This document shows, piece by piece, positions 2,393 to 17,388 of a stretch of 23,432 nt of DNA. The notes beneath the pieces were generated by a model. That model had not been told where the DNA came from, did not search any database, and worked only from the letters and a program-made list of their open reading frames with translations. Within the stretch, counting starts at the first letter, position 1, and each line of letters opens with the position of its first letter. The translations under genes were made by a program, and so were the position numbers. This DNA comes from a virus. The stretch is taken from positions 1-23,432 of the IMG/VR virus record IMGVR_UViG_3300037294_000245; one strand, written 5' to 3'.

Positions 2393-3199
2393 TTATTTCC
2401 AGTTTTCTTTTGGCCATGTATCAACGCAATCGTGTATGTTAGGGTGTCCATGAAACACTGCTATTTTATTTTCAACATCTAACTTAGGTATCCCGGCTGT
2501 TTTAAAGTTACGCTGACCATTAACCACTCCTAAATGTTCTCGTCCACGCATTTCCCATTTGTAACTTTGTATCCATGTGTCTGGCCAAAATGTATAATCC
2601 TTGATGGTTTTGTACATCCAATCTTGATCGCCTTGGAATTTGCGCACAATACCGGCGTGATTAATTTTAAAGTCTTGATATAAATTATTATACTTGCCTA
2701 TCTTGAACCTAAACACACTGCTGTTCATTCTATCCCATCCTTTGCGAGCAATTCGATTGAAGTCTCGTATAATAACAAAATCAGATTCTAAGTTGTATTC
2801 AAAAAGATGGTCGATGTTTCTAAAAACTATTAGATCAAGATCTAAAAACAATGCAGTGCCAGTGATGCCCAACTCGTTACTGAGAAACCAAGGCTTGTAC
2901 CACCATCCAGTGACTGATATCTTTGGTAGGGGTTTTACAGTTATGTGCTTGTCGATACCTTTAGAATTTTCAGTAAAGCAAATAAATTCGTAATCTATTG
3001 TAAGATTACGGTTTACCATATTATACAATATATTTACATACTCGGCACTATATTTGTCTCCCCATTTAAGACAGAGTACATAGCGTTTTTCAACAAATGA
3101 CGATGGTACAATTTCTTGTACCATCTTGTTTGATTTTTCTGATTGCTTACGAGCTTTACGTTGATCTTTGCTTTCAGCCCATTGCTTTATAGATTGCAC
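2393..3199 (-). CDS. Glycosyltransferase-like protein (GT-A type fold suspected)
   Basis: A 268-aa protein with features of nucleotide-sugar-dependent transferases. ALFLDLDLIVF places a DxD motif at residues 120-122, the usual metal/nucleotide-sugar site. Around residue 190 there is GDQDW, and FHGHP at 249-253 matches the FHG(x)P signature seen near the C-terminus of many such phage and bacterial proteins. The first 30 residues are basic and polar without a signal peptide, so it should act in the cytoplasm. The start overlaps the end of the queD-like gene by 26 bp, implying coupling. Substrate is unknown; DNA, host surface glycan or a virion protein are all possible. Confidence is good for the superfamily, low for the target. 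Confidence 0.75.
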   Translation of the reverse strand: MQSIKQWAESKDQRKARKQSEKSNKMVQEIVPSSFVEKRYVLCLKWGDKYSAEYVNILYNMVNRNLTIDYEFICFTENSKGIDKHITVKPLPKISVTGWWYKPWFLSNELGITGTALFLDLDLIVFRNIDHLFEYNLESDFVIIRDFNRIARKGWDRMNSSVFRFKIGKYNNLYQDFKINHAGIVRKFQGDQDWMYKTIKDYTFWPDTWIQSYKWEMRGREHLGVVNGQRNFKTAGIPKLDVENKIAVFHGHPNIHDCVDTWPKENWK

Positions 3200-3626
3200 T
3201 GTTTGCTCCGTGTTCGGCGCATTCGACTTCTACGCACCAACAGCGTCCATCTGTAGCTGTGCGCACAAGTTCATCTGCAAACTTCCAAGCATGATATGCA
3301 AACTTCTCTACACCAACTCCATCTAAAATTGTAAGTTCAGCAAGTCCTTTTGCTTCTAAGTCTTTAAATGTATCCATATGAGGATCGCTTGATGTTAGCA
3401 CAACTTTGTGATCAAAGTTGTTTTCTAGCCAAGCCTTTAATGGTTTAAGTCCACCAAAGTCTACTACCCAATTTTTATTGTCAAGTTCGTTTGCTGCAAA
3501 TGTAAATTTAAATTGCAAACTGTAACCATGTAGCAAACTACAATGCGAATGATCTGCATTTGGTTGTCTAAAGCAAGCACTAAGTCCTATGTTGTGTCCG
3601 TATGTTTTTGTACTATAATAAGCCAT
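3174..3626 (-). CDS. 6-pyruvoyl-tetrahydropterin synthase / QueD-like protein
   Basis: A 150-aa member of the T-fold PTPS/QueD family, whose standard members make 6-carboxy-tetrahydropterin in the queuosine/7-deazaguanine pathway. Visible matches to QueD: CSLLHGY (the C...HGH region), NWVVDFGGLKPLK (WxxDF...LK), FDHKVVL (the DH pair) and VECAEHGANSAIY (C-terminal Glu region). Two zinc-binding histidines of classical QueD appear changed: SACF replaces AAH, and HGY replaces HGH. From memory, a bacterial and phage subfamily with an SAxFRQW...HGY...EHGANSAIY pattern exists, particularly in alphaproteobacteria, so this is probably a defined variant rather than a broken gene. A good GAGGAAA site precedes the ATG. 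No queC, queE or folE is in the window. Confidence 0.82.
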   Translation of the reverse strand: MAYYSTKTYGHNIGLSACFRQPNADHSHCSLLHGYSLQFKFTFAANELDNKNWVVDFGGLKPLKAWLENNFDHKVVLTSSDPHMDTFKDLEAKGLAELTILDGVGVEKFAYHAWKFADELVRTATDGRCWCVEVECAEHGANSAIYKAMG

Positions 3627-11428: not shown

Positions 11429-11433
11429 ACAAA

Positions 11434-11517
11434 CATTGTTTAAAAGATACATCAACCGTTCCATTACTTTCCACAAACGGTACCGGTATTTTAAGTTGAT
11501 GTATCATTAAAACTATG
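11434..11517 (-). ncRNA. GATACA-type stem module upstream of tRNA-fMet
   Basis: GATACATCAAC (RNA, 11505-11495) pairs perfectly over 11 bp with GTTGATGTATC (11456-11446). A further imperfect helix CATAGTTTTAA / TTAAACAATG lies outside, separated by a small internal loop, and an ACCGTT/AACGGT hairpin lies inside. It shares architecture with the modules at 16580-16707 and 17111-17229. Confidence 0.6.
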
Positions 11518-11518
11518 T
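11495..11518 (-). repeat. 24-bp direct repeat, copy A
   Basis: Identical at 22 of 24 positions to 11743-11766. The two copies flank the 61-aa ORF. This copy forms the 5' arm of the module at 11434-11517. Confidence 0.7.
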
Positions 11519-11717: not shown

Positions 11718-11742
11718 TATATAACTCCTTTTGTTAATTTTA

Positions 11743-11766
11743 GTCGATGTATCATTTAAACTATGT
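11743..11766 (-). repeat. 24-bp direct repeat, copy B
   Basis: Partner of 11495-11518. It sits at the 3' end of the giant RNA candidate. It can also pair with GTTGATGTATC (11456-11446) through one G-U pair, giving an alternative stem around the 61-aa ORF. Confidence 0.65.
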
Positions 11767-12210
11767 GTTTAGTGTAACAGTCTCGGAAGTGGAGTAATTG
11801 CTTACTTCCAAATGGGTCGGAACTCGAAAACTGTTACACAAAACACATTGCCGAACGGCGTATAGCCTGTCCCATATCAATGTATTTTTGCCTAGGTTGA
11901 GATTACACCTTAGGACGGAGCCCTTTGATAGCCTTACCCGAACCCTTGCGAGGTTGGTTAGCCCATATCCACTAAAGTCCTTGCGGATTCTCTAGTATGC
12001 TCCAATGCTGCCTTTTTTGGAGAGTGGCGTTTCTCTCGTCGCGCATTGCTATTCGTCCTTTGATCTTCCGCCTGCCTTCGGAGCAGTTCACAGTCGCTAA
12101 ACCGTTACGTCTTCTCTTGGAACAATCACCTCTGCCTTGCGAGCTTTGGTGAACCCAATTCACTTGCGTGTCGGGTTTTAAGCATCTTTCACAATGCGCC
12201 GGGACAGTCT

Positions 12211-12293
12211 TTCGCTTTTGTTTATCAAAGAAGGATTTGAACCTTCGCCGATTCCTTAGAAGGGAATTGCTCTACCGCTGAGCTATATGCGAA
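12211..12293 (-). other. tRNA-like domain (Arg TCT-type arms) inside the giant RNA
   Basis: D-arm GCTC/GAGC, anticodon arm ATTCC/GGAAT around CTTCTAA (TCT) and T-arm GAAGG/CCTTC around TTCAAAT are all intact with normal spacing. The acceptor strands (TCGCATA and TTTGATA) do not pair, and no CCA follows. Instead TTCGC (12293-12289) pairs with GCGAA (12215-12211), and a GGGACAG/CTGTCCC helix closes the whole unit. It is therefore unlikely to be a chargeable tRNA. A true tRNA-Arg(TCT) is present at 16308. Confidence 0.7.
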
Positions 12294-12902
12294 CCTACTT
12301 CGATGTGCTGTCCCAGTTGCTCCATATCTTGTTAGATACAGAATACAACACACCAACTGTTTTTTGCCTTGCGGGCTACTAAACGGCTCTTCAAGTCTCC
12401 GGGGCCTAACCCTTCTACTCTTGCGCTGCTACCTAGCCTTTGCTTGCGAGCTCAGACAGTGTAACTACTGGTTGGTCGTCAACATTCGTTAGCGTGGCTG
12501 TATATTGTAGAACCGCCAAGTTCCTTATCGCTCACCGACTGGCTCTGCGACTATCCTTTCGGACAATATACCTAACTTACTGTTTACCGCCTTTCTACGG
12601 ACGGAAGTTGCTTTCGCTTTCACGAGTCAACTTTAACCCCAGCTTGCTTAGATGGACCATTGCTGGCAGTGGTTTATAGGAAACCCACTCTTGGGACAGT
12701 TGCCTGCCTTACCCTTATGGACGCTAAACCGCCCATCTTACTGTATTTACAGCTACAACATGTTCTACTTAGTAGAAGTATGATCAGTACTTGTCTTATG
12801 TGTCACGACATTGGGCTATTAGGCTTACTGTTATGATCCACAACACACGTTGTATGTGTAAATACAGCTTTTGCTCGTCATCGACTTGCGTCTAAAGCTT
12901 GT

Positions 12903-12928
12903 TCTAAATTATCAAATAGCGTGTAAAC
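12903..12928 (-). repeat. Conserved leader element, copy 1
   Basis: A 26-bp sequence, identical at 25 positions to 15821-15846. In both places it starts about 20 bp downstream of a TTGACA/TATATT promoter of the tRNA region (RNA core GTTTACACGCTATTTGA). Confidence 0.75.
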
Positions 12929-12946
12929 ATCTCTGCTTACTTGTTT

Positions 12947-13004: not shown

Positions 13005-13080
13005 TGGTGCTGCCAGCAAGATTCGAACTCGCGACATCTTGATTACTAATCAAGCGCTCTACCAACTGAGCTATGGCAGC
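13005..13080 (-). tRNA. tRNA-Thr(AGT)
   Basis: Textbook cloverleaf: GCTGCCA/TGGCAGC acceptor, A73, CCA encoded, GCTC/GAGC D-stem, CTTGA/TCAAG anticodon stem with loop TTAGTAA, GCGAG/CTTGC T-stem. The anticodon AGT has A34, which is rare in bacteria outside tRNA-Arg(ACG) and would need a TadA-like deaminase or unmodified-A decoding. Confidence 0.88.
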
Positions 13081-14413: not shown

Positions 14414-14489
14414 TGGTGGACCATAACGGTACTGCCCCGTTTCTTCCGCATTGCAAGTGCGGTGTGCTACCTTCTATCACTAATGGCCC
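14414..14489 (-). tRNA. tRNA-Ala(TGC)
   Basis: Acceptor GGGCCAT/ATGGTCC contains G3-U70, the alanine identity pair; A73, CCA encoded; anticodon arm CCGCA/TGCGG around CTTGCAA. The T-stem AACGG/CCGTT is good but its loop is GGCAGTA, lacking the usual TTC. Confidence 0.85.
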
Positions 14490-16855: not shown

Positions 16856-16932
16856 TGGTACTCGCGGAGGGATTCGAACCCCCAACCTTCGCATTCGTAG
16901 TGCGGTGCTCTATCCAGTTGAGCTACGAGAGT
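16856..16932 (-). tRNA. tRNA-Arg(ACG)
   Basis: Acceptor ACTCTCG/CGCGAGT with one T5-C68 mismatch, A73, CCA encoded; anticodon loop CTACGAA; GCTC/GAGC D-stem; T-loop TTCGAAT. A34 is normal for this isoacceptor (inosine by host TadA). Confidence 0.9.
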
Positions 16933-17229: not shown

Positions 17230-17304
17230 GTGTGCCCTCGGGGATTCGAACCCCGGACATTTCGATTAAAAGTCGAACGCTCTAACCAACTGAGCTAAGG
17301 GCGC
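17228..17304 (-). tRNA. tRNA-Lys(TTT)
   Basis: Acceptor GCGCCCT/AGGGCAC with a C2-A71 mismatch, A73, CCA encoded; anticodon arm TTCGA/TCGAA around CTTTTAA; T-stem CGGGG/CCCCG. Confidence 0.92.
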
Positions 17305-17311
17305 ATTGTTT

Positions 17312-17388
17312 TGGTGTGCCGGGTGGGATTTGAACCCACGACCATCGGATTAAGAGTCCGCCGCTCTGACCAACTGAGCTACCGGCGC
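17312..17388 (-). tRNA. tRNA-Lys(CTT), copy 2
   Basis: Acceptor GCGCCGG/CCGGCAC with the same C2-A71 mismatch, A73, CCA encoded; anticodon loop CTCTTAA; T-stem GTGGG/CCCAC. A second Lys(CTT) besides 16383. Confidence 0.9.

Follow-up and report, generated by a model that had tools for sequence, protein, structure and literature searches.

A GOLLD RNA with a tRNA-like linker domain in a phage tRNA array

What does a stretch of about 1.2 kb encode in the middle of a phage tRNA array, and what might a tRNA-like unit be doing inside it? These questions are raised by the DNA analyzed here (referred to as the window), the 23,432 bases of IMG/VR virus record IMGVR_UViG_3300037294_000245, which carry phage-type genes (encoding a UV-endonuclease-like protein, a GIY-YIG-type homing endonuclease, QueD, a ClpP-like protease, and an ATP-dependent DNA ligase) and an array of 24 tRNA genes predicted by ARAGORN. 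An earlier sequence-only reading had placed a GOLLD-like RNA at 11764-12940, and left open whether it was a new or divergent member or a related unnamed class. GOLLD was reportedly first described by Weinberg in 2009. It is a large RNA of phages and prophages, often located near tRNA islands as in this window, and its expression rises during lysis.

Identity and architecture of the RNA

A cmscan of the window matched the Rfam GOLLD model (RF02032) on the minus strand at 12356-11894, with 192.1 bits (gathering cut-off 150 bits) and an E-value of 5.1e-53, and a further search gave 1.2e-56 for the GOLLD match. The model is covered end to end (1-416 of 416), and thus the Infernal comparison with the GOLLD and ROOL models that the sequence-only reading had named as its test came out in favor of GOLLD. 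ROOL, which is unrelated to the window RNA in sequence and secondary structure, was absent among the matches with E up to 1, and both ROOL and a separate RNA class are ruled out by the cmscan. The minus strand from about 12940 to 11760 therefore encodes a GOLLD RNA, and we regard its membership in the family as practically certain. The locus adds one more GOLLD to a known class; the proposed new member stands, and the unnamed class does not. From promoter to 3' end, with both boundaries inferred, the RNA measures about 1.05-1.2 kb, in the large size range of GOLLD.

The promoter attributed to this RNA is present on the minus strand at 12974-12947, directly after the tRNA-Thr(AGT) gene. It is a sigma-70-type site (TTGACA-16-TATATT) with 11 of 12 matches to the consensus and an extended TG. 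Shuffled sequences contained on average 3.3 weaker promoter sites in the region, so it is the strength of this site, not the count, that stands out. Similar promoters occur in dozens of related loci, likewise in tRNA arrays and 0.47-0.87 kb upstream of the pseudoknot strand. The 5'-most part of the RNA (12940-12751, its start being inferred from the promoter) contains an 11-bp stem, CTGTATTTACA/TGTAAATACAG, at 12867-12857/12751-12741. About 180 nt of the proposed 5' end (roughly 12940-12760) are missing in a close relative, L015, which does not share this part of the RNA.

Downstream of this part lies the variable 5' domain of GOLLD (12690-12317), which forms the cage cap in the published structure. 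We aligned it with 28 relatives (alignment A2, 29 sequences) and derived a consensus structure of 97 pairs by RNAalifold. Changes on both sides were found in 62 of the 97 pairs, compared with 41 in shuffles, and the covariation score was 0.494, compared with 0.204 for shuffled and 0.05-0.08 for slid alignments. As the structure was derived from the same alignment, the share of cells that are paired (98.6%) is favored by construction, but shuffles and slides still fall far below. The 5' domain is a strongly covarying structured RNA, separate from and less conserved than the 3' domain, as is characteristic of GOLLD. Because the homologues covary strongly, the outcome that would have counted against the GOLLD call, namely homologues without covariation and no match to any large RNA class, is the opposite of what was found.

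Other structural claims also held. Nine GNRA-capped hairpins of at least 3 pairs were counted in 12940-11894, where at least six had been claimed, whereas 500 dinucleotide shuffles averaged 2.1 and never exceeded 8. Besides the 11-bp stem, the long-range pairings include a 7-bp stem at 12314-12308/12207-12201 and a terminal hairpin at 11849-11762, with 19-nt arms (11848-11830/11781-11763) that are 95% complementary and a fold z of -6.2. Since the Rfam-conserved part stops at 11894, this hairpin is an extra 3' element within the proposed extent. It has no T-run and is thus not a classical terminator; related DNA is found in L030, L431, and other loci. The frames within the RNA amount to only 63-79 aa, in agreement with the earlier statement that no credible ORF is present, and the sequence is explained by base-pair covariation. 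That the locus instead codes for protein or represents a new class of large RNA is refuted in practice: the Rfam model does leave the 5' domain uncovered, but the match spans the whole model, GOLLD linkers in related loci are immediately preceded by homologous 5' domains, and short frames coincide with strong RNA covariation.

A truncated tRNA-like unit in the linker

The linker is closed by the 7-bp pseudoknot stem, with GGGACAG (12314-12308) as its 5' strand and CTGTCCC (12207-12201) as its 3' strand; the stem varies across linkers, and its complementarity served to collect them. Within it, a tRNA-like domain (12292-12223) has a cloverleaf core, and is recognized by its Rfam tRNA match (58.8 bits, 12292-12222) and by 69 homologous linkers. 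Its anticodon loop is CTTCTAA, with the anticodon TCT at 12260-12258. The acceptor stem is reduced to a 4-bp remnant, CATA (12289-12286) facing TTTG (12229-12226) with one T-T mismatch, and an A-rich 3' tether, AACAAAAGCGAAAGA (12222-12208, alignment A1), leads from the domain to the pseudoknot strand. ARAGORN made no call for the unit, and single-sequence folding of the linker did not predict the cloverleaf (z = -0.1), the support for which is comparative.

Compared with a functional elongator tRNA, the unit retains the cloverleaf core and the elbow residues (D, anticodon, and T arms, TTCRANN T-loop, and Levitt pair), but lacks the 7-bp acceptor stem and an encoded CCA. Only 4 of its 7 acceptor pairs are present, whereas the tRNAs of the array form 6-7 of 7 and encode CCA in 23 of 24 cases. 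The absence of CCA is read from the sequence alone and is compatible with post-transcriptional addition. The internal tRNA-like unit noted earlier is thus real, although it is not an intact tRNA.

To gather linkers, viral contigs and phage isolates were scanned by pattern, and a linker was kept if it had the 3' motif and a pseudoknot 7-mer with its complement. Among 50 records from the first scans, 7 lacked any GOLLD match and were chance hits; the analysis was therefore restricted to linkers in which the pseudoknot, the 3' motif, and a cloverleaf were all present. This yielded 97 linkers (77 unique), 69 of which parse as cloverleaves. The parser required the D-loop GG and the T-loop TTCRA core; as the acceptor stem played no part in collection or parsing, its pairing can be read without bias. 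Of the acceptor pairs, 4-69 to 7-66 are formed in 63-67 of the 69 unique linkers, above all 5000 shuffles, and they covary. By comparison, pairs 1-72, 2-71, and 3-70 are formed in 34, 20, and 30 of 69, against shuffle means of 31.2, 19.8, and 30.1. The same pattern, with pairs 4-7 kept and pairs 1-3 at chance, is seen when the set is reduced to 29 representatives with less than 85% identity. Across the 69 linkers, the stems of the D, anticodon, and T arms are retained and covary, the Levitt pair 15-48 is present in 62 and also covaries, and all 69 have a TTCRANN T-loop, while CCA occurs near the acceptor end in a single one. Given this covarying core, the chance-level outer pairs, and the missing CCA, as opposed to the CCA-encoding array tRNAs with 6-7 pairs, the unit is a conserved truncated tRNA mimic that probably cannot be charged.

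The same linker type is found in the isolates phiCbK, CcrKarma, RBC57, MD18, DSS3_MAL1, Phosso, and Cp1R7A-A1. A GOLLD query from L031 had no match among phage isolates, and a match in Rhodococcus phage Francesca (H25) proved to be an ordinary tRNA-Arg. The tRNA-like domain is optional and absent from many GOLLDs: L020, L040, L228, and the group L001/L018/L039/L041 have a simple hairpin or short loop in its place. We also considered another 4-bp stem (TTCG/CGAA) that would connect the two ends of the linker beyond the acceptor remnant, but it is restricted to the GCGAAAG subgroup (27 of 30, compared with 0 of 39 elsewhere); since common descent may account for this, we make no claim for it.

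One virus departs from this scheme. L009 (4739-4857) and L048 are 99.97% identical and represent one virus, whose GOLLD linker appears to contain a tRNA in circularly permuted form: the T-arm, the acceptor 3' strand, and CCA come first, and a short spacer separates them from the acceptor 5' strand, the D-arm, and the anticodon arm. Its 7-bp acceptor stem (GGGGGAG/CTCCCCC) is intact and the tether is at the variable loop; when the unit was rejoined in normal order, ARAGORN called a tRNA. A further scan gave no second virus with this arrangement. In phage DSS3_MAL1 (L226, 3586-3994), an annotated tmRNA (ssrA) directly follows the GOLLD.

Possible roles of the linker unit

As the best explanation of the locus as a whole, at a probability of roughly 0.6, we propose a GOLLD cage RNA that carries a conserved, non-translating tRNA mimic in its linker. 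The RNA would be transcribed from its own promoter inside the tRNA array and, by analogy with the cryo-EM structure of the 14-mer of env-38 GOLLD (PMC12286853), would likely assemble into a closed 14-mer cage. In the env-38 cage the disordered linker (nucleotides 497-538) is located in the lumen, and tRNAs are sometimes present in the GOLLD linker (Kretsch et al., PMC12286853, a study that assembled more than 800 GOLLDs). By Rfam model position, the unit described here would fall at this luminal linker, and a 14-mer could hold up to 14 tRNA-like domains in its lumen, each within a pseudoknot-closed linker and each with core and elbow kept, a 4-bp acceptor remnant, and no CCA. Such a domain would be neither charged nor used in translation, and we consider it very likely that it is not a working translational tRNA. 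The caged mimic may act as a decoy or bait for a factor that recognizes tRNAs (a host anticodon nuclease, for example) or as a ribosome ligand, but a decoy or bait role specifically is proposed with low confidence.

A purely structural role appears about as likely, though tentative too. The element would then be an elbow-stabilized plug or spacer that folds the luminal linker or docks on GOLLD, with no outside partner. Consistent with this, core and elbow are kept in the window's subgroup while the anticodon loop differs in both length and sequence (8-nt loops, lost U33), and the simple hairpins of L020 and L040 occupy the same place in other GOLLDs. Yet a spacer would not need a complete cloverleaf whose Levitt pair covaries, the linker in the published structure is disordered and shows no docking site (PMC12286853), and changes focused on the anticodon loop occur in three groups of close relatives.

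These changes were followed in pairs of near-identical GOLLDs. Between phiCbK and Karma/RBC57/Swift, 5 contiguous loop bases differ in GOLLDs that are ~99% identical; L453 and L468 have 4 differences over 860 bases, 3 of them in the anticodon loop; and the sole difference between L002 and L035 is a base beside it. Counted as events, anticodon-arm changes in the three groups number ~3, compared with 0.3 expected (P about 0.004), a statistic that is only suggestive as it was computed after the pattern had been noticed. Over 24 independent close pairs, a general excess was not clear, with 0.104 changes per site in the loop and 0.076 in the rest. Among the 58 seven-base loops, GTT (18), CTT (12), TCT (9), and TTT (7) are the most common anticodons, and many loops are canonical (CTGTTAA, CTCTTAA). 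Because of these canonical loops and the lack of a clear excess over the 24 pairs, diversifying selection in the three groups is only suggestive. In a more specific version, which we regard as unlikely, the cages of this lineage would display an unchargeable luminal mimic with an anticodon loop under diversifying selection, and would serve as a phage counter-defense device that traps or decoys host tRNA-targeting enzymes or sensors, the loop being retuned to the host's arsenal.

It is far less probable that a functional tRNA-Arg(UCU) is released from the linker by processing and used in translation, with GOLLD storing or delivering tRNAs. The tRNA-model score of 58.8 bits is good, the anticodon TCT is absent among the ARAGORN tRNAs of the fragment, and isolate genomes have tRNA-Arg, Lys, Gly, or Leu annotated at the corresponding position. 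Nevertheless, the outer acceptor pairs are at chance in 69 linkers, CCA is missing although the array tRNAs encode it, 11 of the 69 anticodon loops deviate from a length of 7 nt and 3 of the seven-base loops lack U33, and no expression was detected for the pseudo-tRNA inside a mycobacterial GOLLD (PMC6582537). Decay of a captured tRNA, i.e., a pseudogene left by recombination between array tRNA genes, is less probable still: despite the location in tRNA arrays and the broken acceptor stem here with its T-T mismatch, decay would not be expected to preserve a cloverleaf with covarying D, anticodon, and T stems, Levitt pair, and T-loop, or to shorten the acceptor to an identical point in every lineage, and the covariation led us to reject it.

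Relation to known systems and further features of the locus

GOLLD, the GOLLD cage, and tRNAs in its linker are already known; the systematic 4-bp acceptor with missing CCA was not found in the searchable literature. The bacterial Y RNA YrlA reportedly has a tRNA-mimic module (Chen et al. 2014, cited in PMC9569102) and would be comparable as a larger noncoding RNA with a tRNA-like module inside. At 17244-17360, the window has a weak match to YrlA (25.7 bits, cut-off 69), which falls on two ordinary tRNA genes.

Like env-38 GOLLD, the window RNA has a 3' domain covering the whole model, a separate variable 5' domain, and a linker at the position that is luminal and disordered in env-38, and lies in a tRNA island of a phage genome. 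It differs in its extra 5' stem and extra 3' hairpin and in having a tRNA-like domain where env-38 has a 42-nt disordered stretch. In the GOLLD cryo-EM model, kissing loops (B7-B9) and A-minor contacts (B1 and B6) form conserved bridges between molecules, and ROOL, also a large phage and prophage RNA, likewise forms cages (PMC12286853). The GOLLD of a Mycobacterium tRNA array is similarly located among clustered tRNA genes and contains a degenerate tRNA, for which no separate expression was detected (PMC6582537); that is a single pseudo-tRNA case, whereas truncation here is systematic, with base-pairing constraint across 69 linkers. Phage counter-defense tRNAs share the anticodon-loop variation and the setting in tRNA arrays but are proposed to be replacement tRNAs (PMC10264068, PMC11555353), whereas the linker unit is tethered, lacks an acceptor end, and thus could act only as a mimic.

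The proposal that GOLLD cages hold phage tRNAs (PMC12286853) can be made more precise: in this large lineage, what is tethered is a conserved tRNA core that lacks a functional acceptor end, and this speaks against storage or delivery of tRNAs and for mimicry or structure. Since the same architecture exists in phiCbK-like Caulobacter phages and Roseobacter-group phages, both of which can be propagated on laboratory strains, the question is directly testable.

Several minor features surround the RNA. The QueD-like 6-pyruvoyl-tetrahydropterin synthase (3174-3626), on the same fragment as the array, may serve deazaguanine modification of tRNA or DNA. At 14417-14489 is an atypical tRNA-like gene with CCA (Rfam 39.2 bits, no ARAGORN call). 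Both tRNA-Thr (anticodon AGT, 13005-13080) and tRNA-Arg (ACG, 16856-16932) have A34; tRNA-Thr(AGT) is rare in mycobacteria (PMC9569102). Directly downstream of the GOLLD RNA, a 61-aa ORF (11717-11532, minus strand) is flanked by a 32-nt repeat (88%) at 11487-11518 and 11735-11766, which has an inverted partner at 11433-11456 and is possibly regulatory or mobile.
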